DNA of 32,724 nucleotides from assembly GCA_946629525.1 (NCBI GenBank), contig CAMOXU010000025.1, forward strand, positions 1 through 32,724, in the 5' to 3' direction. The position numbers and the translations under genes are program-made. Positions within the stretch are counted from its first letter, which is position 1, and every line of letters begins with the position of its first letter. Below are positions 9,327-32,724 of this stretch, in pieces. The stretch comes from an uncultured Clostridia bacterium. Its GTDB lineage: Bacteria; Bacillota; Clostridia; Lachnospirales; Lachnospiraceae. The notes under the pieces are model-generated. The model did no database searches, had not been told where the DNA came from, and saw nothing but the letters and a program-made list of their open reading frames with translations.

Positions 9327-10421
9327 ATGTTTTGCAAATATTGTGGAGAGCAAATTTCATATACAGGCAAGTGGTGCGGACATTGCGGCAAGGAAATTCC
9401 TCCGCTTTATATGTACCGCAAGGCGGTCCTTCGTACGAATGTGCCCAAAAGTGCTGCGGAATCTCTCCGCCAGAGCCCGGAAAGCAGGGATGCCGGTCCG
9501 GCCGGTGATCTGAAGAGCTTTATGGCGAATACGGTCGCAGTCACTGAACAGAAGTCTTCTTTCGACAGCGAAGGAGCGAACGCCGGCAGACCCGCCTTTG
9601 ACGGGGATAGAACGCAGGCATCCGTGTCTGCGTTTTACGGAGAAGCGGCGTCCCATGATGCGGCTGCCTTCGACGGCGATGCTACACAGCCCGGCGTATC
9701 TGCGTTTTACGGAGAAGCGGCGTCCCATGACGCGGCTGCCTTCGACGGCGATGCAACGCAGCCCGGAGGATCTGCATTTTACGGAGAAGCGGCGGCACAC
9801 GGCGCGGCTGCCTTCGACGGAGAAAGAACGCAGGCGGACGGACCTGCATATCATGAAGATGCGGCGAAGACAGGCAGTTCTGCCGGCGGATTCTTCTCCG
9901 GAAGCACAGCCGGTTCACCAAATCCCGCAGCATCCTTTAACCGGTCCGGAGACCTCGTCGGGTATCCGGGCGAGGAGGACGCTCTCCCGGGCAAAGAAAA
10001 ATCAGGAAAGGATCCGGTAAAGAAATCAGCCGGGAAAAGAGTGCGGATCTTTACGGGGATCGTACTGGGAGTCCTGGTCGCGGGAATTGTCGGGTTCGGT
10101 CTGGGACGTATATTCCCGAGATCCGACCGCACGGGGACAGGCGATGGGAAGGCGGCAGAGGATGTTGTGGAATCTGCTGCAGTGACCGTAACGCCTGTGT
10201 CGGAGCAGAGCTCCTCCGGAGAGGAGAATGAGCAGAATGAATCCGGAAGCAGCGTCACGTACGATACGAGATCTGCGGTCTTGGAAGCAGTCGCAGACAC
10301 AGCGGGCGTCGAAGCCGGAACCGCTGAGAATATTGAAGAGAAAAATGTGAACGGGCCGAACATCGGCGGTGATATCCCGGTGGAAACGGGAAGCGTTCCT
10401 GCGGAAGGACCGGTCGTATAA
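9327..10421 (+). CDS. Zinc-ribbon single-pass membrane protein with 24-residue repeats
   Basis: 364 residues. It has one N-terminal zinc ribbon (Cys 3, 6, 17, 20; MFCKYCGEQ), then a cytoplasmic, probably disordered region with three 24-residue repeats (AFDGDxTQ…SAFYGEAASHDAA). One membrane helix follows (about 239-262, GIVLGVLVAGIVGFGLG) and an Asn/Ser/Glu-rich outer tail. ATG 9327 has GGAGG six bases upstream; the ATG at 9321 directly abuts that GGAGG and is unlikely. The PP2C gene starts 31 bases after its stop, so it heads a likely operon with PP2C and the kinase. Inferred role: membrane adaptor. It has no catalytic motif. Confidence 0.8.
   Translation: MFCKYCGEQISYTGKWCGHCGKEIPPLYMYRKAVLRTNVPKSAAESLRQSPESRDAGPAGDLKSFMANTVAVTEQKSSFDSEGANAGRPAFDGDRTQASVSAFYGEAASHDAAAFDGDATQPGVSAFYGEAASHDAAAFDGDATQPGGSAFYGEAAAHGAAAFDGERTQADGPAYHEDAAKTGSSAGGFFSGSTAGSPNPAASFNRSGDLVGYPGEEDALPGKEKSGKDPVKKSAGKRVRIFTGIVLGVLVAGIVGFGLGRIFPRSDRTGTGDGKAAEDVVESAAVTVTPVSEQSSSGEENEQNESGSSVTYDTRSAVLEAVADTAGVEAGTAENIEEKNVNGPNIGGDIPVETGSVPAEGPVV
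9594..9830 (+). repeat. 72-bp in-frame tandem repeat
   Basis: Units at 9594, 9666 and 9738 and a decaying fourth at 9810, each 24 codons. Units 1-3 are nearly identical at the GCGTTTTACGGAGAAGCGGC core, so the expansion is recent. Confidence 0.88.
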
Positions 10422-10452
10422 GAACCGCATTCCGGAACGGAGGGTGTACGAT

Positions 10453-11430
10453 ATGGCACAGGAGAAAGAGAGAGGTCTTTTTGCTTTGCTCTCGCAGAGC
10501 CTCTTTACTGCTCAGGATAAGGTGAAGGACTGCGGTGAGGACAGTTATCTGATCGGGTTCCACGAGAATGCCGGCGTCTGCGCTGTCTTTGACGGGCTTG
10601 GCGGGAGCGGCAGCCGTCAGTATAAAGAGTATGGCGATAAGACCGGAGCGTATGTTGCCTCCAGGGCCGTCTCGGAGGAGCTGTACAACTGGTTCCTGAC
10701 ATTTTCAGAGGATCAGGACCGACTGGCAGCCCCCAGGATCGCGGATGCCCTGCATGAGAGGATCGACAGGAGACTGGCGTCCACAAGGATCGCCGAGGCA
10801 AAAAAGAGTTCGCTGAAGAGCAGCATGACGCGGGACTTTCCGACGACGCTGTCCATGCTGGTGTTCCGACCGGACGGGCAGGGAAGTGTCAGCGCAAATG
10901 TGATCTGGGCAGGCGATTCAAGGAGCTACTGGCTGGACGGCGGCGGACTGCATCAGCTCACACTGGATCATACGTCAAAGCAGGATGCCTACGAAGCGCT
11001 CTATAAGGATGCCGCCATGAACAATGTGATCAGCGCGTCGGAGCCCTACACGCTCTCAGAGTATATTCTGGACGGGCTCAGCAGGGGAATCGCATTTTCA
11101 GCGACGGACGGATGCTTCGGGTATCTGCAGTCGCCGATGCACTTTGAATATCTGCTCCTCGACAGTCTGCTGGGGGCGGAGAGCCTTTCTGAGATGGAGA
11201 AGTCTCTGCATGAGCGTCTTGTCAAGATCGCAGGCGATGATTTCACACTGACGGGTGCGATCTTCGGATTCGAGAGCTTTGAGCAGATGAAGGCATACTA
11301 CAGGAAACGGTACGATGTGCTCTTCCCGAAATATATCGAGCACTTCCGGGAGAGCGACAGGGAACAGCGGCTTGGTCTGTGGAAGGAATATCGCGGCGGC
11401 TATGAGAAGTATCTGCCCGCGAAAAAATGA
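10453..11430 (+). CDS. PP2C-family Ser/Thr protein phosphatase
   Basis: 325-residue metal-dependent phosphatase. Family metal ligands are all visible: Asp30 (CGEDSYL), Asp47-Gly (VFDGLGG), Asp219 (SATDGCFG) and the DD pair at 262-263 (AGDDFTL). The internal motif WAGDSRSYWL and the following LTLDHTSKQD are typical. It should remove phosphate from Ser/Thr targets in the cytoplasm. ATG 10453 has GGAGGG eight bases upstream; upstream in-frame ATGs lie inside the previous gene. It ends 15 bases before the kinase start. PP2C beside a kinase and a vWA gene is the composition of the TerY-P triad. The obvious partner is that kinase. Confidence 0.92.
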   Translation: MAQEKERGLFALLSQSLFTAQDKVKDCGEDSYLIGFHENAGVCAVFDGLGGSGSRQYKEYGDKTGAYVASRAVSEELYNWFLTFSEDQDRLAAPRIADALHERIDRRLASTRIAEAKKSSLKSSMTRDFPTTLSMLVFRPDGQGSVSANVIWAGDSRSYWLDGGGLHQLTLDHTSKQDAYEALYKDAAMNNVISASEPYTLSEYILDGLSRGIAFSATDGCFGYLQSPMHFEYLLLDSLLGAESLSEMEKSLHERLVKIAGDDFTLTGAIFGFESFEQMKAYYRKRYDVLFPKYIEHFRESDREQRLGLWKEYRGGYEKYLPAKK

Positions 11431-11445
11431 TGAGGGGCAGGAGAA

Positions 11446-12459
11446 TTGGCTGATCAGAATTTAAAATTAGGAGAGTACGAACTTGTAAGACCGCTCCGGT
11501 CCGAGAACGCAGGCTTTTCAGAATGGGGATTCGGCAAAAAGGACGGACAGACGTATTTTATCAAGAAATTCCTCTCGCCCGTCTATCCGCCGGAGAACGG
11601 GAGGCTCGGAAAGAGGATCGTCGAGAAGAAGAAGGCGATGTGCGCCCGATATGAAGCGGAAAAAAGGGAGCTGTTCTGGAACATCAACGAGGTCTCGGAC
11701 GGGAATCTCCTGAGGATCCATGAGTTTTTCCGGTGCGGGACTCATTATTACATTTCCACGGAGAAGGTGGATGCGATCGACTTTGAGAAGGAAGTCCTGC
11801 GGCTGAGTATGGACGAGAAGGTCGTCCTTATGAAGGTCCTCTGCCATGCTCTGAATTCGCTGCACAATGCGGGGCTTATTCACGGGGATATCAAGCTGAG
11901 CAACGTCCTGTTCTACCGGACGGAGAAGAATACGGTCTCGGCAAGGATCATCGACATCGATTCCTGCTTCCGAAAGGACAGGCCCCCGAAGAATACGGAT
12001 GAACTCGTAGGGGATTTCGTGTATCTGTCCCCGGATTATTACAGGTTCATGTCGGGACAGACGACCACCGTTCTGGATCAGATCGATATTTTTTCGATGG
12101 GGCTCGTCTTCCATGAGCTCCTTACCGGAAAGCTGCCGGATTATGATCATGAGAAGTACAGGTATCTGTACGAGAGTGTCCTGGCCGGGCACAAGCCGGT
12201 GCCGGACCCGTCGATCCCTCCGCAGCTCCGGAACTTTATTCAGTCAATGCTCTGGTGCACGCAGGAAGTCTATCCCTCCGCACTGAGCCTCCTGCAGGAG
12301 CTCCGGCTCATGACGCAGGGAACGGTCAGACCGACGCCGCAGAGAAGAAGCAATACGTATATTCCGGCTCCGCCTCCGGTCTATAAAGAGCCGGTGCCGA
12401 AGAAGCCGAAGTACAGTGAGGACCCGGAGGACTGGTTCCACGCGGCCGGGGACCTGTAG
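11446..12459 (+). CDS. Ser/Thr protein kinase with C-terminal GDL peptide
   Basis: 337 residues. The kinase fold spans about 8-285: Lys40 (YFIKKFLSP), catalytic loop HGDIKLSN with Asp148 (HGD instead of HRD), Asp170 in IIDIDS (DID replaces DFG), APE-like FVYLSPDYYRF, and DIFSMGLVFHELLTG. Lys and both Asp are kept, so it should be active. A Pro/Lys-rich tail (YIPAPPPVYKEPVPKKP) ends in DWFHAAGDL at the C-terminus, a peptide echoed in the zinc-ribbon protein at 13453. Start is TTG 11446 with GAGGGG eight bases upstream; no ATG fits. No membrane helix. It probably phosphorylates partners read by the FHA domains of the ABC ATPase (inference from gene neighbourhood). A 61-bp repeat begins in its last codons. 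Confidence 0.92.
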   Translation: MADQNLKLGEYELVRPLRSENAGFSEWGFGKKDGQTYFIKKFLSPVYPPENGRLGKRIVEKKKAMCARYEAEKRELFWNINEVSDGNLLRIHEFFRCGTHYYISTEKVDAIDFEKEVLRLSMDEKVVLMKVLCHALNSLHNAGLIHGDIKLSNVLFYRTEKNTVSARIIDIDSCFRKDRPPKNTDELVGDFVYLSPDYYRFMSGQTTTVLDQIDIFSMGLVFHELLTGKLPDYDHEKYRYLYESVLAGHKPVPDPSIPPQLRNFIQSMLWCTQEVYPSALSLLQELRLMTQGTVRPTPQRRSNTYIPAPPPVYKEPVPKKPKYSEDPEDWFHAAGDL

Positions 12460-12582
12460 GGACGGCCCTCGAACCGAGGGATATTTAGCCGACTGGTTCC
12501 ACGCGGCCGGGGATCTGCAGCGACAGCCCTCGAATCGAGGGATATTTTGCCGACTGGTTCCACGCGGCCGGGATCTGCAGGG
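12430..12582 (+). repeat. 61-bp tandem repeat across the kinase stop codon
   Basis: Units start at 12430, 12491 and 12552 (third partial), each opening GACTGGTTCCACGCGGCCGG. The period is exactly 61 bp and not a multiple of 3. The first unit encodes the kinase C-terminus and TAG; the second and third have CAG there. Each full unit contains a palindrome CCCTCGAAYCGAGGG. Confidence 0.92.
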
Positions 12583-12621
12583 AACAGTACGGCAAAATCC
12601 CGCTGCGGCCATCAGAATCGA

Positions 12622-12639: not shown

Positions 12640-12658
12640 AAAGCTGGTAAATGAGAAA

Positions 12659-12702: not shown

Positions 12703-12726
12703 TCTGTTACATGAAGGAGAAAAAGG

Positions 12727-13425
12727 ATGGAAGGATTTAACCAGAATGATTACAGAATGACCTACAATGTCGATATCGCGCTCTGCATCGATATCACGGG
12801 CAGCATGCGTCCAATCCTTGATACGGTCAAGAACAATGCGCTCAATCTGTGTGACGATATCAAGAACACCATGATCAGGAAAGGGAAGGAAATCGACAAG
12901 CTTCGGATCCGCATCGTCGCCTTCCGCGATTATGATGCGGACGGGGATGAGGCAATGCTGGTCACGGATTTCTTTAATATGCCGGAGCAGGGAGCTATCT
13001 TCGAGAAGTGCGTCCGCGGTCTGAAGCCGAAGGGAGGCGGAGATATTCCGGAAGACGGTCTGGAGGCGCTTGCCTACGGCATTAAGAGCAAGTGGGACAA
13101 GACCGGCATGAAGAGCCGTCATATCATTATCGTGTGGACGGACGCCCCGACGCATGATCTCGGATACGGAAGATCGAATCCGTCCTATCCGCGCAATATG
13201 GCTGCTGACTTTGACGAGCTCACCGAATGGTGGGGAGATTCCCAGCTTCCGGGCGTCATGGATCAGAACGCAAAGAGACTTCTTCTTTTCGCGCCGGATT
13301 CCCACTGGTGGAGCGATGTTTCCGACTGCTGGGATCAGGTAATTCATTTCCCGTCCAAGGCAGGCAGAGGTCTTGAAGAGGTCGACTATGAGACGATCGT
13401 CAGCTCGATCTGCAACTCGATCTGA
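12727..13425 (+). CDS. von Willebrand factor A (vWA) domain protein
   Basis: 232 residues, essentially one vWA domain. The MIDAS metal site is complete: Asp22-x-Thr24-x-Ser26 (IDITGSMRP), the GGGDIPEDGLEAL segment near 105, and Asp139 (VWTDAPTH). The FRDYDADGDE and GGGDxPED motifs are closer to the vWA of VwkA-type alpha-kinases than to classical TerY. No signal peptide or membrane helix, so it is cytoplasmic. AAGGAG lies seven bases before the ATG. It sits 267 bp after the kinase and 27 bp before a zinc-ribbon gene. The likely role is a metal-dependent protein-binding scaffold for the kinase/phosphatase pair, by analogy with TerY-P systems. Confidence 0.9.
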   Translation: MEGFNQNDYRMTYNVDIALCIDITGSMRPILDTVKNNALNLCDDIKNTMIRKGKEIDKLRIRIVAFRDYDADGDEAMLVTDFFNMPEQGAIFEKCVRGLKPKGGGDIPEDGLEALAYGIKSKWDKTGMKSRHIIIVWTDAPTHDLGYGRSNPSYPRNMAADFDELTEWWGDSQLPGVMDQNAKRLLLFAPDSHWWSDVSDCWDQVIHFPSKAGRGLEEVDYETIVSSICNSI

Positions 13426-13452
13426 TAATTGTTTTCTCTCAGGAGGAGTCAT

Positions 13453-14070
13453 ATGGCTGGAATCAGATATTGTGAAAGCTGCGGGGCGGTCCTGCAGGCG
13501 GATTATCGTTTTTGTGAGACCTGCGGTGCTCCTGTCCGCGTGCTTGCCTCCGGTCCTTCGGGGGCTTCGGCAGGGAACGTCTTTGAAGTCACAGCGCCGG
13601 GATACGGGAGTGTTCCGGAATTTAACGGCGGTTATGGCGGATATGAGTCCGGTGTTCCCGGACGGGTGACAGGAGGAAATGAGGCTTTTGTCGGTGCCGT
13701 CCCGCCTCCCGGAGGAAACGCCGGTTTTTATCCGGGAGAGACAAAGACGGAGATCCTCGGCAGAGGGCCGGGTAATCGTCCTACCGAGGATTTTCGGGAG
13801 GGATGGTATAACGGATATTCGGGCCCCGGGGATTCAGGGGCGGGATATGACAGGTATCCGGGGGATGTTCCGCCCGGCGAGAGTTCTGTTCCGGAAGGCT
13901 TTGAGCGCGGATGGGCAGGCGGTATTTCCGCGGATCCGGGCAGTTCCTATGAGGTGCCGGCCGAAAAGCCGAAGCTCAAGAATTCGATGGGTCCCGCGTC
14001 GGCGAAGGCGAAGGGGGAATCCGTCTCCGATGAGGCAAAACCGTATTTTCGGGAGGGAGGAGACCTCTGA
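13453..14070 (+). CDS. Zinc-ribbon protein with disordered body and C-terminal GDL peptide
   Basis: 205 residues with no membrane helix. It has an N-terminal zinc ribbon (Cys 7, 10, 21, 24; YCESCG…FCETCG), then a Gly/Pro/Tyr-rich, probably disordered body (for example FREGWYNGYSGPGD and FERGWAGGIS), and a Lys/Ala segment ending PYFREGGDL. The last residues repeat the kinase ending (WFHAAGDL). ATG 13453 has AGGAGGAG just upstream. It starts 27 bases after the vWA stop and is likely co-transcribed. It has no enzyme motif. An adaptor or substrate of the kinase is plausible. Confidence 0.8.
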   Translation: MAGIRYCESCGAVLQADYRFCETCGAPVRVLASGPSGASAGNVFEVTAPGYGSVPEFNGGYGGYESGVPGRVTGGNEAFVGAVPPPGGNAGFYPGETKTEILGRGPGNRPTEDFREGWYNGYSGPGDSGAGYDRYPGDVPPGESSVPEGFERGWAGGISADPGSSYEVPAEKPKLKNSMGPASAKAKGESVSDEAKPYFREGGDL

Positions 14071-18929: not shown

Positions 18930-18935
18930 GCCGCG

Positions 18936-22088: not shown

Positions 22089-22768
22089 TGGCTGAGAATA
22101 CGGAAGAGAGCAATGTCCGATCCTCAATGAGAGAAGAGAGTGCGGAGCAGGGCAAAGTCCGGTGCCCGATCGGGGAAGAGAATATGGAGCAGAGCAAGGC
22201 CCTGCTCCGGCGGGAGAAGATAAAGGCCCGCGACGCCATCCCGCCCTCCGAGCGGGACGAACGGTCGGAGGCGATCGTCGACCGGATCCTTGAAAGTGAG
22301 AGCTTCAGGAGGGCGGAAGTCGTGATGATCTACCGCGCGGTCCGGGGGGAAGTCCGGCTGGACCTTCTGCCTGTCAGGGCTCCGGAAAAGAAGTATGTTT
22401 ATCCGCTCTGTATGGAGAACAATGCAATGCGGGCGCTGCTCCCCGGCTCACCCGACTGCTGGCGTCCCGGCCCATTCCGTATACCGGAGCCGGATCCGGA
22501 GCTGTCGGAGGAAATTCCGCCGGAGAGGATCGACCTTGTTCTCTGTCCCTGCACGGCATTCGACGCAGAGTGCAATCGGCTGGGGATGGGCGGAGGCTAC
22601 TATGACAGGTTCCTTCCGAAGTGCCGGAACGCGGAGGTCTACGGCGCTGCATATGAGGTGCAGCGGGCAGAGCGTGTTCCCCACGACCTGCTGGACCGGC
22701 CGATGGACGGTGTGTTCACCGAGAAGGAGAGAATTGTTGCCAGAAGTTCCGTAAGGAACTCCCGATAA
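22088..22768 (+). CDS. 5-formyltetrahydrofolate cyclo-ligase with repeat-built N-terminus
   Basis: 226 residues. It uses ATP to convert 5-formyl-THF (folinate) to 5,10-methenyl-THF, which FolD can then use. Family features: ALLRREKIKARDAI with the N-terminal Arg/Lys, VMIYRAVRGEVRLDLL, DLVLCPCTAFDAECNRLGMGGGYYDRFL (conserved GMGGGYYDR) and GAAYEVQRAERVPHDLLDRPMD. The start codon overlaps the folD stop (ATGA-type, TGATG), which suggests translational coupling. The first ~32 residues are outside the family and are made of two 14-residue repeats; an internal ATG at 22184 (MEQSKALLRR) is an alternative start. Cytoplasmic, one-carbon metabolism. Confidence 0.88.
   Translation: MAENTEESNVRSSMREESAEQGKVRCPIGEENMEQSKALLRREKIKARDAIPPSERDERSEAIVDRILESESFRRAEVVMIYRAVRGEVRLDLLPVRAPEKKYVYPLCMENNAMRALLPGSPDCWRPGPFRIPEPDPELSEEIPPERIDLVLCPCTAFDAECNRLGMGGGYYDRFLPKCRNAEVYGAAYEVQRAERVPHDLLDRPMDGVFTEKERIVARSSVRNSR
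22109..22192 (+). repeat. 42-bp in-frame repeat at the 5' end of the cyclo-ligase gene
   Basis: Two 42-bp units (22109-22150, 22151-22192) each end in GGAGCAG and code for 14 residues ending EQ. The true family N-terminus (SKALLRREK) follows as a partial third unit. Confidence 0.75.
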
Positions 22769-22811
22769 AAGACCTGCGATCCGCCGGGTCTGCTTCCGCA
22801 TATGAGGTGCG

Positions 22812-22840
22812 AAAAGGGCTGCCGATCCGGCAGCCCTTTT
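22812..22840. terminator. Bidirectional intrinsic terminator
   Basis: AAAAGGGCTGCCG and its exact reverse complement around a 3-base loop give a 13-bp stem with A-run and T-run on either side. It lies between two convergent genes and can end both. Confidence 0.95.
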
Positions 22841-22873
22841 CGTATGGACTCAGATATGTTTTCAGGGGTCATT

Positions 22874-24034
22874 TTACAGAGCAGCTCTGTAGATCCCCTC
22901 GATATCTTCCGCAGTCAGCGGCACGAAGGAGCCCTTGCTCCCTGCTGCTGCCTTCTTTGCCATTTCCTTAAAGTTCTTATCGTCCTCGATTCCGACCTCG
23001 TGGAGCGATCCCGGAATATGCAGCTCTTTGGTGAAGAATTCGGCAGTCCGGTCGATCGCCGCATTTGCGACTTCATAGTCATCGCCCCCGAAAATTCCCC
23101 AGACATTGCGCCCGTAGTTGGCGAATCTTGTGACGGTGCTGTCATTTAACGCAAAGCGCATCCAGTGCGGCGTCATGATCGCAAGGCCTTCGCCGTGGGT
23201 GATGTCGTAGAATGCGGACAGCTCGTGCTCAATCGGATGGACGCACCACGCAACGCCCGTTCCTGCGTTCAGAATGCCGTTGCTCGCGTTGCTGGAAGCC
23301 CACATGAGGGCAGCTCTTGCCTCGTAATCCTTCGGATTTTCGAGTGCGGCCGGGCCGTACTTGATGCAGGTCATGAGGACGCTCTCGCAGAATTTTTCCT
23401 GCATGAATCCGCCCTCGACAGTCGTGAAATAGTTCTCGAACGTATGGCTCATGATATCCGCAGTGCCGGCTGCCGTCTGCTTTGCGGAGACCGTATAGGT
23501 GTATTCCGGATCGCAGATGGACATCCTGGGCTTGAAGTACGGAGAATAGGTCCCCCACTTTTCATGGGCTTTGAGGTCGGAAATGACCGCGTTGCCGTTC
23601 ATCTCCGAACCGGTGGCTGACATCGTGAGGACGGTGTAGAGCGGCAGGGCTTTCAGGATGTACTGCGGATGGATGACCAGGCTCCAGGGATCGCCGCCGT
23701 AGACTGCGCCGCCGGCGATGACTTTGGCCGCGTCGATGACGGAACCGCCGCCGACCGCGAGGACCATGTCGATCTTGTTCTCCTTGCAGATCTGCACGCC
23801 CTTGCGAACGGACTCGATCTTTGGATTCGGCTCGATGCCCGGAAGCTCATAGATCCTGAGACCGACCTTGTGGAGCAGGGCCATCACTGTGTTGTAGAGG
23901 CCGAGCTTCTTGATGCTTCCCCCGCCGTAGACGAGCAGGACTTTGCTGCCGCTCTCTTTGATCTCGGTAAGGTGCGAGATCTGGCCTTTGCCGAAATACA
24001 CTTTTGTCGGGACATAATAGGTGAAATTGTTCAT
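22874..24034 (-). CDS. Iron-containing (group III) alcohol dehydrogenase, butanol dehydrogenase type
   Basis: 386-residue NAD(P)H-linked alcohol/aldehyde oxidoreductase of the BdhA/YqhD type. N-terminal FTYYVPTKVYFGKGQI and the nucleotide site GGGSVIDAAKVIAGG are family signatures. Metal ligands are visible: GTADIMSHTFENYF (Asp and His) and HPIEHELSAFYDITHGEGLA (two His 14 apart). It reduces butyraldehyde-like aldehydes and helps balance reducing power in fermenters; exact substrate not shown. AGAGAGG lies before the ATG. It has its own - strand promoter (24209-24238) and ends at the bidirectional terminator. No visible link to the tubulin-like gene upstream. Confidence 0.92.
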   Translation of the reverse strand: MNNFTYYVPTKVYFGKGQISHLTEIKESGSKVLLVYGGGSIKKLGLYNTVMALLHKVGLRIYELPGIEPNPKIESVRKGVQICKENKIDMVLAVGGGSVIDAAKVIAGGAVYGGDPWSLVIHPQYILKALPLYTVLTMSATGSEMNGNAVISDLKAHEKWGTYSPYFKPRMSICDPEYTYTVSAKQTAAGTADIMSHTFENYFTTVEGGFMQEKFCESVLMTCIKYGPAALENPKDYEARAALMWASSNASNGILNAGTGVAWCVHPIEHELSAFYDITHGEGLAIMTPHWMRFALNDSTVTRFANYGRNVWGIFGGDDYEVANAAIDRTAEFFTKELHIPGSLHEVGIEDDKNFKEMAKKAAAGSKGSFVPLTAEDIEGIYRAAL

Positions 24035-24165
24035 AAATACCTCTCTGATTTATTGAAATGTGGACCGCGGGGAAGGCGGTCTGTCATAAAGTTTCAAATG
24101 AAAAGAATCTGTCTTCTGCACTCAGGTCCGTAGGGATTTTCCGGAGGACCCTGCATCGCAAAATG

Positions 24166-24181
24166 CCGCAGAGCTCTGCGG
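24166..24181. promoter_or_regulatory. 16-bp palindrome in the alcohol dehydrogenase leader
   Basis: CCGCAGAGCTCTGCGG is perfectly self-complementary and lies about 30 bases downstream of the -10, near the expected transcript start. It could be an operator or an RNA hairpin. Confidence 0.4.
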
Positions 24182-24208
24182 TCTGACGCCTGCAGGAGAT
24201 ACAGCTTC

Positions 24209-24238
24209 ATTGTACCATACGCAGAGGATGCCCTTCAA
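24209..24238 (-). promoter_or_regulatory. Promoter for the alcohol dehydrogenase gene
   Basis: On the - strand: TTGAAG (24238-24233), an 18-bp spacer and TACAAT (24214-24209), with an extended -10 TGG upstream. The leader is about 170 nt. Confidence 0.65.
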
Positions 24239-24278
24239 CTTCGACATTCGGGAATTGCGGAGCGGCGCAAAAGCCCTC

Positions 24279-27200
24279 TCAGTTATTCCCCCCGCTCTCT
24301 GCGAGGATATCCTCGAAATCCCACTTCATCGCCATGAGCCGCCGCTGGGCTACGTCTGCCGCCCGGTCGTACTCCACGAGATCGAAGAGCTGCTTTAAGA
24401 GGTAGGGCGACCGGATGATGTGATCGAGCATGGTGGTCTCGGTCCTTCCCGGGGCTTTTATATAAATGCAGGTAAATTCCCCCTCCCGCATATCCTCCTT
24501 CAGCATGCGGATCCCCCGGATCCAGTGCAGGAGGGCATCCATGTCAGGCTTTCCGCCTGTATAAAGGTACTTCTTTTCCAGCTCGCGGCTTATATTGCGC
24601 CGGAAATCCAGCTCGTCGTCGCATCTGTCCGGTCCGATGCAGCGGAGGATCTCCAGATGGCGGATCGTCTCGGGCATTCGGAAGACGGGCCGGCGGATGT
24701 ATGCATTTTCAAAGGGGGCTCCGGACGGGTCATTCACCTCGATGAGCCCGATGCGCTTTGCGGTGCGGAAGATCCGTTCGGCTGCATGGCCGAAGCCTGT
24801 CGCCTCCGGATCAAGGCTGTAGGGGACCGGGGGAGGGAGCGTGAGGAAGCTGTGCGCCTCCCCTTCATCAAGAAGGATCCCGGGAATGTCGGTCCGGTCG
24901 AATTCGCTTTTCAGCTGCGCGAACTGACTGAGCCCATAGGGCGAGATTCCTCCGTAGAAGCGGATCACACGGACCCTGTCGGAGACGGGGGCCTCCTGCA
25001 GGACATAGTCCGGCTTTCCGGCGCACAGTCTCTCCGCTGCCGACCGGATATCCCTGAGACGGGCCGGGCAGGAGAGCAGAAGCGGCTTGACGAGCGGTTC
25101 CGTCCGAAAAGCGGCTGTGAACCGGATGTCCGGCTTTGCTGTCCGGATCATCGGGGAAAAGAACCTGTCTGCGATCACCCGGTCTCTCTCGTACCAGTTG
25201 GGTCCGGACAGATATTCCTCGTAACTCTTTTTTGTGATCGAATCGATCTCGAAGCCGTAGAGGTCGAGGACAAATTTTCCGATCATGGAGCGGATCCGGA
25301 GCTCGTCCCCGGAGAGCCATTCGTTATCATATGCGAGAAAATGAAGGACCAGCTGCCGTACCGTCGCCTCCGCCTTCAGGTCTTCTGTCAGCCAGTCGAG
25401 CTCGGGAAGGATGAGGCGCAGATCGATGAGAGGACCCTCCGGCCGGGAATGGGAAGACTGCCGGTATCCGGACAGCCTGCCCGGTACCTGACCCTCCGGT
25501 GTCCGGGAATCTGCCGGGGAGAGCGCGTTGAACCAGCGGGTGTTGTCTGCGAAGGATTCGCGAAGATTGACCAGCATCTGCTTCAGATATTCAAAATAAC
25601 CGGTATACAGGCCGCGGATCCTGACCGACAGGGTGCGGAGCAGATCCTCCGCCGCCGAGGCGACGTCGAGATCCAGCTGACTTTTGTACCAGATGAGAAG
25701 CTTTTCGCGATAAAGATCGTAGGCTTCATCGACAGCGCGGGGCTTTGTGATCGTGTTCCGGGAGGCGCAGAAGGACTGCTTTGCGCTCTCTGCCATGTTC
25801 CGGCAGCGGTCTGTCCTGCTCCGAAGCTCTTCGACGTGATCGCCTGCTTCCTCCGTGAGACGGTCCGCTGCGGCGATCAGATTCGGACCGGTCCCCGACA
25901 CGAGGCAGGAGGCAAAGTAGGGACCGCATGCGGGGTCCAGCATGACCCGTTTCAGCTCCCGGAAGAGGTTCCCGATGATGGAATCCGGATTCCGCTCGCC
26001 ATCCTCGTCGACGAAGAAGGACAGGAGGGACGCGGAGTTTTTCTCTATGGTCTCGTGCTCGCGGGCGAACCAGTCGTTGATCGGTCCGATGATGAGCGGG
26101 GCGTGGCCGAAAGGCTCGTTGTAGCGCTTGACGGAGACCGGGTCAGGCCGCGGAACAGCGTGATTTGTGAAGATTCCGCGCCGGAGGGCAGCCTCGATCC
26201 CGGAGAGGTCCGCCAGAATGGTGCGGGACAGGAAGCGCTCGAGATCCTGCTCGAGGGGCTCCCTGTAGAGCAGCGGGGCCAGGCGATTGAAAAGACTTCC
26301 CGCGACATAGGTAGCCGCGTGCCGGGAGATGAGTTCGCTCCCGCCTATGCCGAATACCGAGAATGCGCAGCTTGCCCCGCGGGTGACCGGGAGAGTCCGG
26401 ACACGCAGGGTCATTTTCTTCAGTGTGGAGGGCAGGGAGGTCTCCGCAGCCTGATCCTCCTCCGTGATCCATGCGAAAAGGTATTCTGACAGAAGGTCGA
26501 TCGCCGCATCCCGGGGAAGCAGATCGGGACTGCTTCCGCTGTGTCTGTCTGCGGCCGGAGCCTGCAGGAGAAAGCAGGCATCCGCCGGCGTATTCCGGCT
26601 CCGGATCTCTCCGAAGCGGTAGGTCTGGCGGAACTCCGCGCGGTTCTCCCGCATGCTCATGAGATAATCCATTTCCTTGAGGGCGGCGTAGCTGTTGCGC
26701 TCGAGGGTCGGGACAAGATATGTATTTGCAAGCTCCCCCCCGGAGGTCAGGATATCGGGAAGGAACAGGTAAGTGTACAGCCGGTCAAAGCCGGGTTCTG
26801 CCTCTTCCAGAATGTGCCGTACCATATAGCAGATGTCGGCCAGCGCGCCGCCCATTCCGCCCGCGAGGCCGGAAAGGATGTGGACGGAGAGCATCTTCTT
26901 CGTCTCTTCCCCCGACTCCCCGGAGGATTCGCCGGATACATGCGCAAGGAGCTCCGTGAGAATTGATCTGAGACGTGCATAGACAGTCTGTGAGGAATCG
27001 ATCAGGAAAAATCGTCCGAGCTGACGGGTGCTGCCGGCTCCGTAGAGCGGAGAGGGGAGATGGGGAGTCTCCTCCGACAGCCAGCCAAAGAGGGGAGTGC
27101 TTCTGTTCTTCTTTCGCAGATCGACGTCTGAGAAGGAAGAGACAGCGTTCTCGGTCTCGATATTCAGGGATTCGATGCCATCCGGGAAGTCCGGCGTGCC

Positions 27201-27548
27201 CTCCCAGTCGGCGTGGGCGTCGATCGCGAGGAGGCGGACGGAGCCGGATGAAGATCCTGAGGCACTTGATGAGAAGTAAGCGGCACCTGGAAAGGAACCT
27301 GCGGTACCTGACGAAGAATCTGCGGTATCTGACGAGGAATCTGCGGTGAACCCTTCATCCATGTCGGAAGAGAAGCCCTCTTTGTGATCCGGGACCATGC
27401 GGACGTTCATTTTCCTCCTGAGCGCACGCAAAGCGTCCGCACCGAGGCCGCCCAGCCCGATGATCAGGGCCGGATTTCCCGCAGTGCGGATGAGGTCGCT
27501 TTCTTTCACGATGCCGCCGCCGGAGCGGATCAGCAGAGAGTCGTACAT
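24279..27548 (-). CDS. Large tubulin-like (Tubulin_2-type) putative GTPase
   Basis: 1089 residues. The N-terminus matches the tubulin/FtsZ nucleotide fold: ALIIGLGGLGADALRALRRK (residues 27-46, first Gly-rich loop), VRLLAIDAHADW (like FtsZ strand VKFIAINTD), and a tubulin-signature-like loop LSGLAGGMGGALADI (about 225-240, in place of GGGTGSG). LERNSYAALKEMDYLM follows. The rest (about 500-1089) is a long helical region I cannot assign. This fits Pfam Tubulin_2 (tubulin-like), whose function is not established as far as I know. A Ser/Asp/Gly repeat linker (about 63-105) replaces a loop after the first strand-helix. GGGAG precedes the ATG. It follows the FHA-ABC and permease genes and one copy of the palindromic element. 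GTP use is inferred. Confidence 0.8.
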   Translation of the reverse strand: MYDSLLIRSGGGIVKESDLIRTAGNPALIIGLGGLGADALRALRRKMNVRMVPDHKEGFSSDMDEGFTADSSSDTADSSSGTAGSFPGAAYFSSSASGSSSGSVRLLAIDAHADWEGTPDFPDGIESLNIETENAVSSFSDVDLRKKNRSTPLFGWLSEETPHLPSPLYGAGSTRQLGRFFLIDSSQTVYARLRSILTELLAHVSGESSGESGEETKKMLSVHILSGLAGGMGGALADICYMVRHILEEAEPGFDRLYTYLFLPDILTSGGELANTYLVPTLERNSYAALKEMDYLMSMRENRAEFRQTYRFGEIRSRNTPADACFLLQAPAADRHSGSSPDLLPRDAAIDLLSEYLFAWITEEDQAAETSLPSTLKKMTLRVRTLPVTRGASCAFSVFGIGGSELISRHAATYVAGSLFNRLAPLLYREPLEQDLERFLSRTILADLSGIEAALRRGIFTNHAVPRPDPVSVKRYNEPFGHAPLIIGPINDWFAREHETIEKNSASLLSFFVDEDGERNPDSIIGNLFRELKRVMLDPACGPYFASCLVSGTGPNLIAAADRLTEEAGDHVEELRSRTDRCRNMAESAKQSFCASRNTITKPRAVDEAYDLYREKLLIWYKSQLDLDVASAAEDLLRTLSVRIRGLYTGYFEYLKQMLVNLRESFADNTRWFNALSPADSRTPEGQVPGRLSGYRQSSHSRPEGPLIDLRLILPELDWLTEDLKAEATVRQLVLHFLAYDNEWLSGDELRIRSMIGKFVLDLYGFEIDSITKKSYEEYLSGPNWYERDRVIADRFFSPMIRTAKPDIRFTAAFRTEPLVKPLLLSCPARLRDIRSAAERLCAGKPDYVLQEAPVSDRVRVIRFYGGISPYGLSQFAQLKSEFDRTDIPGILLDEGEAHSFLTLPPPVPYSLDPEATGFGHAAERIFRTAKRIGLIEVNDPSGAPFENAYIRRPVFRMPETIRHLEILRCIGPDRCDDELDFRRNISRELEKKYLYTGGKPDMDALLHWIRGIRMLKEDMREGEFTCIYIKAPGRTETTMLDHIIRSPYLLKQLFDLVEYDRAADVAQRRLMAMKWDFEDILAESGGNN
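27255..27350 (-). repeat. 21-bp repeats coding a Ser/Asp/Gly linker
   Basis: Units 27296-27316 and 27317-27337 and a partial third share AAYCTGCGGTAYCTGACGA; degenerate copies lie on the low-coordinate side. The linker lies in the N-terminal nucleotide domain of the tubulin-like protein. Confidence 0.7.
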
Positions 27549-27575
27549 GGCATCTCCCGTACTTATAGGAATGGG

Positions 27576-27641
27576 ATTGCGAAACGGTGTACGCAGCGGA
27601 TCTGTGTGAACAGTTCACATGGAGTACGGCGTTTCGCGGTT
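27576..27641. repeat. Shared palindromic element, copy 2 (upstream of tubulin-like gene)
   Basis: The best-preserved copy. GCGAAACGgtGTAC on the left and GTACggCGTTTCGC on the right form a 12-of-14 inverted repeat; at the centre is the perfect palindrome TGTGAAC-A-GTTCACA (27605-27619). It lies 28 bases before the tubulin-like start codon on the - strand and just after the permease stop. Confidence 0.75.
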
Positions 27642-27643
27642 CA

Positions 27644-28444
27644 TTAATAGGAATCGACGAATTCGAGTGCAATGACTGTAAGGACCGCGTACACGACTGC
27701 GAAGAGCAGCAGGATCCCCCACTGATGAAGGAGATTTGCGGCGGTCGCCTCCAGTTCCTTATTGTAGGCGAAGAAGGTCATGCTGTTCACGTCCGCGCTG
27801 ACGCAGAGCGCATTGAGTCCGAAGCGGCTGATGGTGAGCTTCGAGACCTTCTCCGGGATGCCCGTGAGCTCAAACACCATGCCGGACATGATGAGCTGTA
27901 TGATCAGGGCGAAGGGCATGACGGTCATCGCGGTGTTCTCATCCTTCACGACTGCGGAGATGACGAGCGCGAGCGCGTCCGCACTGAACGTGATCAGGAA
28001 GAAGGAGATGAAAAGCTCAAGCGTCGGAGTCAAAAGGACACCTTGTTTTATAAAATGTCCTGAGTTTACGATCCGCACGATGATCGTGACGGGAACGGCC
28101 TCGACTGCACAGAGGCAGGCTTCGAAGAGCCATCTGGCTGCGACGTAGGAGGACATGTGCAGACCGGTCCGGTGCTCCCGCTTCAGGATCTCCCGCTCCC
28201 GGCAGATCACTCTGATCGAATTGAAGATCCCGATCCAGATGCATGCGCAGACCAGGGCGAAGGAGCCGCTCCGGGTCTTGTCGTAGTCTGTGAACATTTT
28301 CTCTCCGGTCACTGAGCAGATGAGCAGGGTGATGAGAACGACGGAGAGGAGGAGCTTCCATCCTTTATCATTGAAAAATCCTCTTCTGTTCCGTCCGAAG
28401 TAGATACCCGTCTGCTGGAAGCGGGACGTATGTTTTTTTGCCAT
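27644..28444 (-). CDS. ABC-2-type transporter permease
   Basis: 266 residues with about six hydrophobic segments (for example KLLLSVVLITLLICSVTG, SGSFALVCACIWIGIFNSI, FISFFLITFSADALALVIS, TVMPFALIIQLIMSGMVFEL and ILLLFAVVYAVLTVIALEF). The layout matches ABCG/ABC-2 membrane domains, which in many bacterial FHA-ABC proteins are fused to the ATPase but here form a separate gene. It starts 29 bases after the ATPase stop on the same strand. AAAGG lies upstream of its ATG. It should form the membrane channel for the FHA-ABC ATPase. The substrate is unknown. Confidence 0.82.
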   Translation of the reverse strand: MAKKHTSRFQQTGIYFGRNRRGFFNDKGWKLLLSVVLITLLICSVTGEKMFTDYDKTRSGSFALVCACIWIGIFNSIRVICREREILKREHRTGLHMSSYVAARWLFEACLCAVEAVPVTIIVRIVNSGHFIKQGVLLTPTLELFISFFLITFSADALALVISAVVKDENTAMTVMPFALIIQLIMSGMVFELTGIPEKVSKLTISRFGLNALCVSADVNSMTFFAYNKELEATAANLLHQWGILLLFAVVYAVLTVIALEFVDSY

Positions 28445-28473
28445 TTCATCTTACCTTTCTAAGTGCCTTTGCT

Positions 28474-30180
28474 TTATGTCTTTCCCTGCATCCGCTCATA
28501 CTTCTCAAGGAAATGGTCCGCCAGCCCGTCTCCGTTCTCCGATTTCCGGTTGATCCGGCGGATGATGCCCTCGAGGGAGTCAGTCCCGAAGAAGGCTTTT
28601 GCATTTTCCGGAGTCCCGAAATACAGGAGATGGCCGACGTTGTCCTTCTCCGTCTTGCCGAGCACGATGACCTTCTTGAAGAGGTCGATGGACCGGTCCG
28701 GACTGTGGGTGATGATCAGCACGATCTTGCCGAGGTCCGCGATCTTCCGGAGACTTTCCATGAGATCCCTGGACATCGGTCCGTCGAGTCCCGAATCCGG
28801 CTCGTCGAGGAAGAAGAGGGACGGATTTCCGACAAGCTCCGTCGCAATGCTGAGACGCTTCAGCTGCCCGCCCGAGATCATACTGGCCATGTTGTTCCGC
28901 TCGTCCGTAAGGCCGAGAAGAGACATCGCCCATTCCGTCTGCCGGACATGATCCGCGGCGGAGGCCGATGCCGGCATGCGCATCTGTGCCGCTGCCAGCA
29001 GGGTGTTATAGACCGTGTCGTTCAGCCGGACGAGGTCCTTCTGGGGAACGTACCCGATCTCGTACTTTACTTCCTCGTATTCGCGGTAGACATCCAGATC
29101 ACCGTAAAGGATGGTGCCCTCCGCCTGATTGTAGCCCATGACGGCTTTCAGGAAGGTGGACTTGCCTGCACCGGATCCGCCGAGAATGAGGACGAAATCT
29201 CCGGGATCGATCGTCAGTTTGATGTCGGAGAGAAGCGTGCGCTTCCGGAAATTGTGCCAGACATCGCGCTTCCGGATATCGATCATAAGGCTCTTTCCGC
29301 CCGCTTCATCCGCCGCTGCGGCTGCCTCTGCGCGGACGCTGTCTTCGATCCGATTGATGCGGTCATCTGCACCGGGCTCTCTGCGGTTCCCGAAAGGAGG
29401 ATTCGATTCGGGCGCTGCCGGCGGGATTTCTTCTCCGAAATGCTTCTCATGAGCGCCGTCGGACGACTTCTCGACCGTCATACCGTGCACGGTCCCGTCG
29501 AGAGAAGTTCCCGAAGCCGTGACCGGGACGCCGGCTGTTCCGAAGCAGAGCGCTCTGCCGGTAAAATAGAACCAGGTCGCGCCGATCTGAACGATATCCC
29601 CGGGGACGAGCTTTGACGCACCGTTGATCCTCCGCGTGTTGACGTATACCCCGTTCGTGCTTTTCAGGTCGATGACGGTCCATCCCTGCGCGCTGTTGAA
29701 GAAGGTCGCATGTCTCGTCGAGACATAAGGATCCTCCAGCCGGAAGGATCCCTCGCCCCGTCCGACCAGAATCTCGCGGATGTCCGAACTGAGCGGGACG
29801 GTGCGCCATGTCAGCGGATAGTGCTTTAAGAAAACGGGGATCATGCGGAAGACGGCGGGGCCTTCGGTCCTGTTCTTCGGATAGAAGGTAAAGATGTCAC
29901 CCGGCATGATCTCTTTGATCGATGTGCAGGGCTGGCCGTTTATATAGGTCCCGTTGGTGCTTCCCGTGTCCCGGTACATGATCCTTCCCTGAACGATGCC
30001 GAATTCGCCGTGCCGGCCGGAAATGTAGGGAGACGGGACCGCAAGATCCGCTCCGCGTCCTGCCCGGCCGAAGGTCTGCCGGCCCTTCAGGGGAAAGTCA
30101 CAGGCGTGTCCGTCCGGGAGAAAGCAGAGAAGGAACGGGACAGAGTTCTTATCGTGCCGGAATAACAGGGTCTTATCCAT
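28474..30180 (-). CDS. Double-FHA-domain ABC transporter ATPase
   Basis: 568 residues. It has two FHA phosphothreonine-binding domains. FHA1 (about 30-100) has GRAGRGAD, SPYISGRHGEF and DTGSTNGTYING; FHA2 (about 130-200) has VGRGEGSF, YVSTRHATF and LKSTNGVYVN, both with the conserved GR, S-x-x-H and N-G residues. A Gly/Pro/Glu linker (about 225-300) is followed by an ABC ATPase domain: Walker A GGSGAGKST (about 333), signature ISGGQLKR (about 432), Walker B LFFLDEPDSG (about 451) and ITHS. It resembles ABCG-type FHA-ABC proteins. It should couple phosphorylation by the nearby kinase to transport through the permease below (inference). Start ATG 30178-30180; the ribosome site AGGT is weak. Confidence 0.9.
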   Translation of the reverse strand: MDKTLLFRHDKNSVPFLLCFLPDGHACDFPLKGRQTFGRAGRGADLAVPSPYISGRHGEFGIVQGRIMYRDTGSTNGTYINGQPCTSIKEIMPGDIFTFYPKNRTEGPAVFRMIPVFLKHYPLTWRTVPLSSDIREILVGRGEGSFRLEDPYVSTRHATFFNSAQGWTVIDLKSTNGVYVNTRRINGASKLVPGDIVQIGATWFYFTGRALCFGTAGVPVTASGTSLDGTVHGMTVEKSSDGAHEKHFGEEIPPAAPESNPPFGNRREPGADDRINRIEDSVRAEAAAAADEAGGKSLMIDIRKRDVWHNFRKRTLLSDIKLTIDPGDFVLILGGSGAGKSTFLKAVMGYNQAEGTILYGDLDVYREYEEVKYEIGYVPQKDLVRLNDTVYNTLLAAAQMRMPASASAADHVRQTEWAMSLLGLTDERNNMASMISGGQLKRLSIATELVGNPSLFFLDEPDSGLDGPMSRDLMESLRKIADLGKIVLIITHSPDRSIDLFKKVIVLGKTEKDNVGHLLYFGTPENAKAFFGTDSLEGIIRRINRKSENGDGLADHFLEKYERMQGKT

Positions 30181-30297
30181 AGTGTACCTCGCGAAACGTA
30201 AAAAGTATGTTGGGTTCCTGCCTTGATGTATCAGGAATGCAGCGGCTTTCGTTATACAGCGGTCATGTTTGGTTTTGCACGCTGCAGGGCACCGGCT

Positions 30298-32724
30298 TTA
30301 TTCTGCGGCTGCCCCGCTCTCCGCAGGGCTGCCATCCGATTCGGAAGCTGCCCCGCTCTCCGCGGAGCTCTCAGCCGGGGTTGCTGCAGTTCCGCTCTCC
30401 GCGGAGCTTCCGTCCGATCCGGATTCCTCTTCATCTGACGATTCGCCGTTGACCTCGTCCCGCAGATCTGCCCGCCAGGCGGCCAGCTCGGCATCTGCCT
30501 CCTCCTCCGAGAGGTAGGTGGGCTTTATGGGAATGTTGGTTGCAGGCTTTTCGTCATGCCCTTCCTTGACGGCGACTTCGATCGCTCCCCGTTTATCGAG
30601 AGGGGAGATAACATGCATTTCCTGCGCAAAAGCAGTCATTCCGAGCTGTTTCATGTCCGCATTTTCATTCCAGGAAATGTACAGCTTATCTGAAATAGTG
30701 TTGACGTCCTTGAACTCAGTAAGCTTTGTGAAATCAGAGACCGGATTCCCGTAGAGGACGAGCGCATTGTAGCGCAGACCGTCCGGAAGCGGGCTGAGAT
30801 CGGAAATCCCATTCTTCTCCGCAAGCAGTACGACTTTTTTCTCTGATAATTCGGTGAGGGGGCCGATATCCGTGATGTTATTGCAGCCGATGTCGAGATA
30901 GTGGAGCTTCTTTACGCTGCCCTCGAGGCCCGTGAGGCTCGTGATCTCATTGTGATCGACCATGACTGCGTAGAGCCCGGGCTTTCCCGAGAGCCCGGTC
31001 AGGTCCGTGAGCGCATTGCTGCCTGCCATGACGGCAGAGAGGTTTGCGCATCCCTCGAGCGGTGAAAGGCTCTTTATCGCATTGCTGTCCGCGTTCAGGA
31101 CTTCAAGCGCAATGCACGTGGAGAGCGGGCTGATATCAGAAATCAGATTGTCGGAGATATTCAGGTTCTTCAGAGAAGAAAAAGCATTCTGAAGCGGAGA
31201 GATGTCCGTGATCTTGTTGCTTCTTACATCCAGAATCTCCATCCCGCTGCTGTTTATGATCCCTTCAATATCCGGAAGTGCATTTCTCGCAGCCTCGAAT
31301 TTTTTGAGTCGGATCATCTGCTCGCAGCCGGTCAAAGATGTCAGAAGATTATCGGAGACTGTCATATACGACATGGTGCCGTTGGCGGAGAGCGGAGAGA
31401 GGTCCGCGATCAGATTTCCGTCCGCGTACAGGTTCGTGAGCGGAAGGGACTCCACTCCGGAGAGGCTGTCGACCTGCGCGTTCCTGCAGTTGAGCTCGGT
31501 CAGCTTTATGCAGCCTGCAAGCGGCGAGAGGCTCTTCACGTAGGTATTGTCGATAATGAGTGTTTTGAGATTTTCGTGACCGTCAAGACCATCGAGCTGT
31601 GCCAGCGGATTTTTGCCGAGATTCACGCTGTAAAGCTTCTCGCACCCGGAAAGAGGAAGAACACTTTCAATCCTGTGGTCCCTGAGGGAGAGATATTGCA
31701 GACTCTTGTGGTCAGCAAGCGGGGTCAGGTCAGACACCTGCCCGTTATCTGCCTGCAGTACGCTGAGATCCGCGCATTCAGCTGCCCACTTAAGATCGTT
31801 CAGATTTGCGTCCTCTGCCCTGAAGGTGACAAGCTTCGGGTGTCCGTAGAGATAATCCGCTTCACTGCCGCCGAGATCAAGATAATCCGATCCTTCTGAT
31901 GCTGAATCGTAGAGATAGAGATTTACAAGATCCGGCATACTGGTAATGCAGGCAATCGAATAAGGCTGCCAGAGCGAGACAGATAGTGTCTCCAGATTCG
32001 GAAAATGTCTGAGACACTCTGTTCCTCCGTCGATCACGCTGCTTATGATCGAAAGCTCTGTGATATTCGTAAGATCCCGGGTAAAAAGCTTTGTGCCGTC
32101 CAGGTTGGAGGATCCTTCCGTATACTTGTTGTAGTACTGCTGCCCGATCTCCAGTTTTTTGAGAGCGGGAGCATCCGCAAGAGGATCGAGGGTCGTGAAG
32201 CCGGTGCATTTTTCGATCCTGAGTGTTTCAATGTGCGTGAGCCGGCTGATTTCCGTGACCATTTCGTCAGAGAGCGTACTGTATCCGATCGTCAGATTTG
32301 TGATCCGCTCGTCCTTCTCGATTGCCTTCAGCTGGGCTGCCGTGACCGTCGTCTTTTCGACCCGGGCATACTCCGGGGAGGATGACTGTGTATAGGGCTT
32401 TGTGCTTCCGCCCCGGAAAATGAAGAACACGACTCCGAACGCAGCTGCAATGAGTGCAATCAGGGCGATCAGGGTCTTCTTGGGCAGTCTGCCGCGCCGT
32501 TTTCCCGCCCTTCCGGAATCCGGAGATTTCGGGCTTTTCTTTTTCTCCGGTTCATCGACTTTAGACGCTTCGGAACTCCGGCCCGCCTGCACGTTGTATT
32601 CCGGTGCGGCATAGCCTGAAGCAGCGTGATCCGGTGCGGCATAGCCGTTTGCCGGCTGATTGTAAGGGCCGTATCCCTGTGCGGCCTGCCCTGCAGATGC
32701 ATAGTTTGGCGGAGCGTACCCCTG
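30298..32724 (-). CDS. Large leucine-rich-repeat membrane protein, 5' end beyond the window
   Basis: The - strand frame is open from the stop at 30298 to the window edge; at least 808 residues. An annotated start at 32592 (GTG) is unlikely because 44 more in-frame codons lie upstream, coding a Gly/Pro/Tyr/Gln/Ala-rich stretch (NYASAGQAAQGYGPY). Order: disordered Tyr/Pro-rich region, Lys-rich stretch, one membrane helix (TLIALIALIAAAFGVVFFIF), then about 20 leucine-rich repeats of roughly 22 residues of the SDS22/internalin kind (LSPLAGCIKLTELNC…). The C-terminal tail is Ser/Glu/Ala repeats. Repeats should lie outside the cell. An N-terminal zinc ribbon beyond the edge is likely by analogy with 6290 and 9327. 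Possible outer sensor or binding protein of the system. Confidence 0.8.
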   Translation of the reverse strand, partial: QGYAPPNYASAGQAAQGYGPYNQPANGYAAPDHAASGYAAPEYNVQAGRSSEASKVDEPEKKKSPKSPDSGRAGKRRGRLPKKTLIALIALIAAAFGVVFFIFRGGSTKPYTQSSSPEYARVEKTTVTAAQLKAIEKDERITNLTIGYSTLSDEMVTEISRLTHIETLRIEKCTGFTTLDPLADAPALKKLEIGQQYYNKYTEGSSNLDGTKLFTRDLTNITELSIISSVIDGGTECLRHFPNLETLSVSLWQPYSIACITSMPDLVNLYLYDSASEGSDYLDLGGSEADYLYGHPKLVTFRAEDANLNDLKWAAECADLSVLQADNGQVSDLTPLADHKSLQYLSLRDHRIESVLPLSGCEKLYSVNLGKNPLAQLDGLDGHENLKTLIIDNTYVKSLSPLAGCIKLTELNCRNAQVDSLSGVESLPLTNLYADGNLIADLSPLSANGTMSYMTVSDNLLTSLTGCEQMIRLKKFEAARNALPDIEGIINSSGMEILDVRSNKITDISPLQNAFSSLKNLNISDNLISDISPLSTCIALEVLNADSNAIKSLSPLEGCANLSAVMAGSNALTDLTGLSGKPGLYAVMVDHNEITSLTGLEGSVKKLHYLDIGCNNITDIGPLTELSEKKVVLLAEKNGISDLSPLPDGLRYNALVLYGNPVSDFTKLTEFKDVNTISDKLYISWNENADMKQLGMTAFAQEMHVISPLDKRGAIEVAVKEGHDEKPATNIPIKPTYLSEEEADAELAAWRADLRDEVNGESSDEEESGSDGSSAESGTAATPAESSAESGAASESDGSPAESGAAAE
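30308..30421 (-). repeat. 36-39-bp repeats coding the Ser/Glu/Ala tail of the LRR protein
   Basis: Three units (starts 30308, 30347, 30383) share a GCTCTCCGCGGAGCT core that codes the ESSAESG-type tail. Confidence 0.7.

Follow-up and report, generated by a model that had tools for sequence, protein, structure and literature searches.

A possible receptor kinase-gated exporter operon with a divergent tubulin-like gene, and a neighboring TerY-P-like module, in an uncultured Clostridia bacterium

The stretch of DNA analyzed here (the window) is the complete 32,724-base contig C25 (CAMOXU010000025.1) from the 163-contig genome of an uncultured Clostridia bacterium of the Lachnospiraceae. It carries two groups of signaling genes on opposite strands. 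A minus-strand operon joins a leucine-rich repeat (LRR) receptor Ser/Thr kinase to an ABC exporter with two forkhead-associated (FHA) domains and to a divergent tubulin-like protein; a plus-strand operon contains a triad of kinase, PP2C phosphatase and vWA protein. The explanation that we favor, with moderate confidence for the whole of it, is that these are two neighboring signaling modules and not one: in the minus operon an LRR-sensing kinase would gate the exporter through its FHA domains, with the tubulin-like protein as a recruited accessory, and the plus operon would be a separate TerY-P-like switch. Each of the parts is of a known kind; their combination looks new and is narrowly distributed.

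Protein families were assigned with Pfam, and for some proteins additionally with NCBIfam, at E<=0.01; transmembrane (TM) helices were predicted by simple hydropathy. Comparisons were made within 61 genomes (the host, G000, and 60 relatives) and within further samples of 398 genomes from the phylum and 392 from the order, and our own profiles, built from one to eleven sequences each, may be insensitive. The features of the minus operon are as follows.

30298..32724, minus strand: LRR receptor Ser/Thr kinase, C-terminal part (linker, one predicted TM helix, LRR); LRR_4, 1.3e-41 at 30298-32592; kinase domain beyond the contig end
28474..30180, minus strand: FHA-FHA-ABC ATPase, 568 amino acids; Pfam FHA (two stretches) and ABC_tran (9.3e-29, 2.8e-24)
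29467..29529, minus strand: Thr-rich part of the FHA2-ABC linker (residues 218-238); unchanged in G035
27644..28444, minus strand: ABC2-type permease, 6 predicted TM helices; ABC2_membrane, 4.9e-16
24279..27548, minus strand: divergent Tubulin_2 (FtsZl1-family) protein, 1089 amino acids; PF13809, 6.8e-33, over cut-off
26835..26870, minus strand: altered T4 loop (GTP phosphate loop); GGMGG in place of GGTGSG, with Met for Thr and one residue fewer

The frame of the first gene is open to base 32724, the contig end, where the gene is cut. Its ortholog in G035 (L026:3247-6810, 1187 amino acids) runs from a Pkinase domain (residues 12-210) through a repeat linker and a predicted TM helix at 467 to the LRR, and the host's own kinase half is found at the very start of another contig (G000:C6:2-1084, minus), with 81% identity to residues 1-367 of the G035 protein. 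An earlier reading of the window (the sequence-only reading) had described an LRR membrane protein; the LRR and the TM helix are there, but the protein is not complete, being the C-terminal part of a receptor kinase. The order is thus LRR receptor kinase, FHA-FHA-ABC, ABC2 permease and Tubulin_2, all on one strand. Here the gaps between the genes measure 117, 29 and 95 bp, and those of G035 measure 35, 72 and 116 bp. Scanning 22700-32724 for promoters and terminators gave signals no higher than in shuffled sequence. Judged by its gene content, the operon is self-contained, with a putative writer and reader of its own. An LRR kinase also directly precedes the FHA-ABC gene in G036, a genome 71% complete in which the FHA-ABC gene is cut by a contig end. 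In G033 (L022, G033:C5, 3980-4480) the receptor kinase gene stops short within its DFG motif, behind the DF, and is continued directly by the permease gene, an apparent deletion or assembly fault.

Both FHA domains have the GR...S..H...NG residues, which we take to be those of the phosphothreonine site. From gene content, gene order, motif conservation and co-occurrence, all of which are observed, we infer a pathway in which the receptor kinase would sense an extracellular ligand and phosphorylate threonines on itself and/or on the FHA-ABC protein; the two FHA domains would then bind phosphothreonine and switch an ABCG-like exporter composed of the ATPase (28474-30180) and the permease (27644-28444). 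The Thr segment at residues 218-238, the same in G035 while the linker behind it diverges, is a candidate phospho-acceptor, at most for this operon. The earlier proposal that a phospho-signal at the membrane controls transport may still hold within the minus operon, which has its own receptor kinase, but not across both halves of the window.

A kinase is a frequent neighbor of such exporters. Ten of 24 fetched ABC loci match FHA strongly, and a kinase adjoins 8 of these ten (seven within 2.5 kb, plus the window, its gene split over C6), against 2 of the 14 loci without a strong match (Fisher p 0.003). The strong-FHA loci without a kinase are those of G002 (a 9.5-kb contig) and G025 (none within 10 kb, the next ~10.2 kb off); L074 and L075 are the two kinase-bearing loci that lack FHA by our own profile. 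No more than 22 candidates per genome were scored in this search and the best-ranked places were inspected, and FHA-ABC genes may therefore be missed. Most of the partner kinases carry a single predicted TM helix, and their C-terminal domains vary (LRR, NPCBM, TPR). ATPase-permease fusions occur in relatives, although the two are separate genes in the window.

The last gene of the operon is a Tubulin_2 member by Pfam, which bears out half of its earlier label of tubulin-like putative GTPase; the GTPase half is put in doubt by the altered T4 loop. The GGMGG loop occurs in 3 of 90 Tubulin_2 sequences, all of the window clade, while 79 of the 90 have a normal-length GGxGxG loop and 82 keep the Thr; the GGGTG(S/T)G-type GTP loop used as a criterion for FtsZl1/Tubulin_2 is not found in the window protein. 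Because of this altered loop a GTP-driven filament is doubtful. The protein is probably a membrane-side scaffold or assembly factor, every such role being inferred. Its dN/dS ratio (nonsynonymous to synonymous substitution rates) of 0.17 indicates a gene that selection maintains.

A midpoint-rooted tree of 90 N-domains places the three orthologs (window, G035 and G033) on a long branch of their own (support 1.0), nested in an 11-member group most of which is vWA-associated (support 0.977). The genomic neighborhoods were drawn from searches of the 61 relatives and of the phylum and order samples, the fetched matches being a subset; 87 of 91 stretches were counted (L292-L295, with no tubulin match by our own profile, were left out), many of which end at contig ends and a few of which overlap or share a contig (e.g., L024/L025). 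Within 10 kb, the family's usual membrane vWA protein is found in 40 of the 87 and a GTPase in 29, both being frequent but not universal neighbors; a kinase is found in 4, this permease in 3, an ABC protein in 3 and FHA in 2, both of the latter being of the window clade; the window receptor kinase is not among the four kinases, its kinase half lying on another contig. With our own profiles PP2C, EssC and WXG100 are found in none of the 87, and neither the usual vWA nor the GTPase lies within 10 kb of the window gene. These observations are consistent with a divergent relative of the vWA-FtsZl1 family that may have been recruited into the operon as an accessory without its usual partners. Elsewhere in the samples, two or three Tubulin_2 genes are clustered in one locus (L270, G746:C6; L028, G034; L284, G641; L289/L290, G677).

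The plus operon comprises the following; a zinc-ribbon gene at lower coordinates is listed with it.

9321..10421, plus strand: single-TM protein, zinc-ribbon-like by eye; opens the operon; CxxC pairs by eye, one predicted TM helix
10447..11430, plus strand: PP2C phosphatase; PP2C_2, 1.3e-8
11446..12459, plus strand: Ser/Thr kinase, no predicted TM helix; Pkinase, 8.7e-21; HGD and DID motifs by eye
12727..13425, plus strand: vWA protein (VWA_4-like); VWA_4, 2.4e-7; metal ion-dependent adhesion site (MIDAS) D.TGS
13429..14070, plus strand: zinc-ribbon protein; 24.7 bits against a Pfam cut-off of 25
6281-7564: Zn_Ribbon_1 and YARHG protein (Pfam)

The sequence-only reading had named a kinase, a PP2C, a vWA protein with an intact MIDAS, an ABC ATPase with two FHA domains and a permease; the Pfam families of all these are found, and the MIDAS D.TGS is invariant across four aligned vWA sequences. 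Of its three zinc-ribbon proteins one is borne out by Pfam (6281-7564), but 9321-10421 has no zinc-ribbon match there and 13429-14070 falls just below the cut-off. Its LemA-like label for 8370-8996 is withdrawn, as neither Pfam nor NCBIfam gives that frame a family at E<=0.01. Tandem repeats of 72 bp lie at 9623-9849, inside the first zinc-ribbon gene, and others of 61 bp at 12430-12580, at the end of the kinase gene and behind it; repeats may also account for the contig break within the receptor kinase linker.

Close relatives of both the vWA protein and the PP2C are found in 4 of the 61 genomes: G000, G035 (97/87% identity), G033 (88/80%) and G005 (52/33%). The vWA search matched 15 of the 61, 11 of them at 32-37% identity in frames of 488-721 amino acids that were not counted as the same family; in the phylum sample six genomes had any vWA match, namely the host and five weak ones, likewise not counted. 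A kinase adjoins the vWA and PP2C genes in all four carriers. Since the order in G005 is different (zinc ribbon-vWA-PP2C-kinase), the set has been kept despite rearrangement; the G005 kinase has one predicted TM helix and that of the window none. Measured against G035 and G033, the dN/dS ratio is 0.02-0.24 for the kinase, PP2C, vWA, FHA-ABC, permease, tubulin and LRR part, and up to 0.42 for the zinc-ribbon proteins, with a dS of 0.6-1.3 that is partly saturated; this purifying selection argues that the window frames are real genes and not chance frames.

Several observations weigh against our explanation. The complete four-gene set occurs in two species only, G000 (the kinase gene split over two contigs) and G035, and the G033 locus has a cut kinase, the permease and the tubulin gene, the LRR and FHA-ABC being missing there. 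The Thr segment 218-238 is conserved neither in G036 nor in the FHA-ABC paralogs. The association of FHA-ABC with kinases is a fragile statistic: the cut-off between strong and weak FHA was set after the data had been seen, counting four weak-FHA loci (no kinase) as FHA-ABC gives 8/14 versus 2/10 (p 0.10), and the loci are related, falling into roughly six lineages, of which four have a kinase. The plus-strand kinase is another possible partner of the FHA domains. Finally, the tubulin ortholog is found in 3 of the 61 genomes, all of them triad carriers (3 of 4 carriers, 0 of 57 others; Fisher p 1e-4), which is readable as linkage of the two operons.

Type VII secretion genes lie in the same region. 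In the host, C6, the contig that also carries the receptor kinase half, has all five WXG100 matches. The G035 contig has, in order, a kinase, WXG100 genes, an EssC-like ATPase with FHA, further WXG100 genes, a 720-amino-acid kinase (whose counterparts in G000 and G033 carry TPR), a paralog of the FHA-ABC and permease pair, and an NPCBM kinase; 13 kb further on comes the window operon and, after another 11 kb, the triad, ~47 kb from EssC.

G035 contig, 10.9-15.9 kb: EssC-like ATPase with FHA, 1668 amino acids
G035 contig, 23.7-26.1 kb: paralogous FHA-ABC and permease, within 8 kb of the type VII locus
G035 contig, 41.7-51.3 kb: ortholog of the window operon, ~26 kb from EssC

This contig also carries three further single-TM kinases. 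At L110 (G035:C98, 3458-5602) a single-TM kinase with a C-terminal NADase_transloc domain (PF25302) adjoins the type VII genes. G025 carries a 788-amino-acid FHA-ABC-permease fusion (L178, G025:C22, 7485-9851), its distance to WXG100 genes being ~40 bp and to EssC 3.2 kb; this is an FHA-ABC exporter inside a type VII locus. Such an arrangement raises the alternative that the window operon is an outlying accessory of the type VII locus, with secretion and the ABC exporter under joint control of the kinases and FHA proteins. The shared contigs of the host and of G035 and the G025 fusion speak for it, as does a WXG100 match over cut-off in 5 of the 8 strong-FHA-ABC genomes versus 14 of the 61 overall (p 0.012, for related genomes and inspected best-ranked ABC matches). 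We nonetheless consider it unlikely, given the ~26 kb that separate the operon from EssC in G035, the FHA-ABC genes without a WXG100 match in G036, G002 and G053, the 11 other fetched WXG100 stretches without FHA-ABC, and the lack of EssC and WXG100 within 10 kb in the Tubulin_2 stretches.

It is distinctly unlikely, in our view, that the tubulin-like gene is a chance neighbor and the remainder an ordinary kinase-FHA-ABC exporter. In its favor, the arrangement has been observed in a single clade, none of the others among the 24 fetched ABC loci has a Tubulin_2 gene in its stretch, and Tubulin_2 is frequent in the order (over cut-off in 56 of 392 genomes); yet the gene lies on the same strand as the permease and 57-116 bp behind it in three genomes, is under purifying selection, and has been retained in G033 despite the missing kinase C-lobe, LRR and FHA-ABC at that locus.

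The sequence-only reading had joined both halves of the window in one system, in which the FHA-ABC exporter and the tubulin-like protein would be targets of the plus-strand kinase, PP2C and vWA protein. Independent occurrence of the two halves speaks mostly against this. G005 has the triad with no Tubulin_2 match and only a generic ABC match (22 of 101 candidates scored); G036, with its LRR kinase and FHA-ABC, has no match of this vWA or PP2C family in a genome 71% complete; and in 84 of the 87 Tubulin_2 stretches both FHA-ABC and this permease are missing from the surrounding 10 kb. The three genomes with the tubulin ortholog share the whole syntenic block, including NhaC antiporter, CYTH, FolD, cyclo-ligase and ADH genes, and they therefore represent one lineage and one inheritance, not independent evidence. 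A joint system, for which one may cite the togetherness of both halves in those three genomes and a PP2C that could erase the marks of the receptor kinase, is thus very unlikely, the more so as the other FHA-ABC stretches have kinases and, by our own profiles, neither PP2C nor vWA, and the minus operon holds a kinase of its own.

Two further observations concern the window at large. PADLOC matches of the kinase and the ABC protein (PD-T4-6, mad6, mad3 and others) look like generic kinase and ATPase matches, and the PP2C, vWA, tubulin and permease have none; hence no named defense system is claimed. At 2387-6130, two ABC units that by eye resemble CydD and CydC lie within a single 1247-amino-acid frame.

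A bolder version of our two-module explanation, which is rather unlikely and offered tentatively, would make the tubulin with its remodeled loop the captured downstream partner of the LRR receptor kinase and of an ABC exporter read through phosphothreonine. One external signal would then govern export and, at the same time, a membrane scaffold that does not depend on nucleotide, and FHA-ABC modules of this kind would serve type VII loci as well.

Comparison with known systems places each of these elements. TerY-P is described as vWA, PP2C and a kinase fused to a zinc ribbon (PMC11090510, in part), and a TerY-P cluster with WXG100 and FtsK genes has been noted (PMC4978471, in part). The likeness in composition that had been proposed holds, the three genes being together in the plus operon by Pfam; however, the window kinase shows no C-terminally fused zinc ribbon, having no such match in Pfam, the zinc-ribbon proteins are separate genes, and no restriction or Ter genes were noticed within the block read. 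The best Pfam match of the window vWA is VWA_4, with no TerY-named match in Pfam or NCBIfam. Among type VII secretion system (T7SS) variants, T7SSc has kinase, vWA and PPM proteins and T7SSd/e have FHA-bearing ATPases (passages of PMC11217815); "ABC transporter" occurs 0 times in the main text of that 2024 survey. The window region resembles T7SSc to T7SSe in having a WXG100/EssC locus. It differs from T7SSc in that its EssC has FHA, which that of T7SSc lacks, in the ~47 kb between triad and EssC in G035 and in a kinase without the TM helix predicted in G005. A link of FHA-ABC exporters with type VII loci, if real, could be tested as an addition to these variants.

Tubulin_2 corresponds to the FtsZl1 family, published in 2010 with vWA, kinase and GTPase neighbors (passages of PMC2875224, whose main text has FHA 0, PP2C 0, phosphatase 0 and ABC 1 times); Firmicute GTPase-tubulin-vWA systems (PMC7159879, in part) and sparse "FtsZ-like" Tubulin_2 proteins (PMC9871819, in part) have also been described. 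The window shares the Pfam family with these, and kinases are among the published neighbors, but it has an FHA-ABC exporter in place of the usual vWA or GTPase within 10 kb, and its T4 loop is altered. An LRR-bearing kinase of Pseudomonas was already listed in 2005, the passage concerned mentioning no FHA-ABC partner (PMC1262709); passages of PMC3482391 contain nothing on FHA-ABC. Among the titles, abstract openings and passages searched, which scarcely cover the subscription literature, no publication joins Tubulin_2 to an FHA-ABC exporter.

The closest parallel is PknF-Rv1747 of M. tuberculosis, a two-gene operon of a kinase and the exporter that it modulates, which bears two FHA domains (PMC3908365, in part). 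As there, two FHA domains lie on the window ABC ATPase and a kinase gene is directly upstream in the same operon (in G035, and in the host across the contig break). Where exporters of that type have ATPase and permease in one polypeptide, the window has them as separate genes 29 bp apart; its kinase has an LRR sensor part, and a Tubulin_2 gene follows the exporter. If our explanation is correct, the minus operon would offer an example of a tubulin-family protein that may not need canonical GTP binding for its work, together with a short route in gut Clostridia from receptor kinase through FHA domains to exporter, which could be compared with PknF-Rv1747 and rebuilt from four genes.

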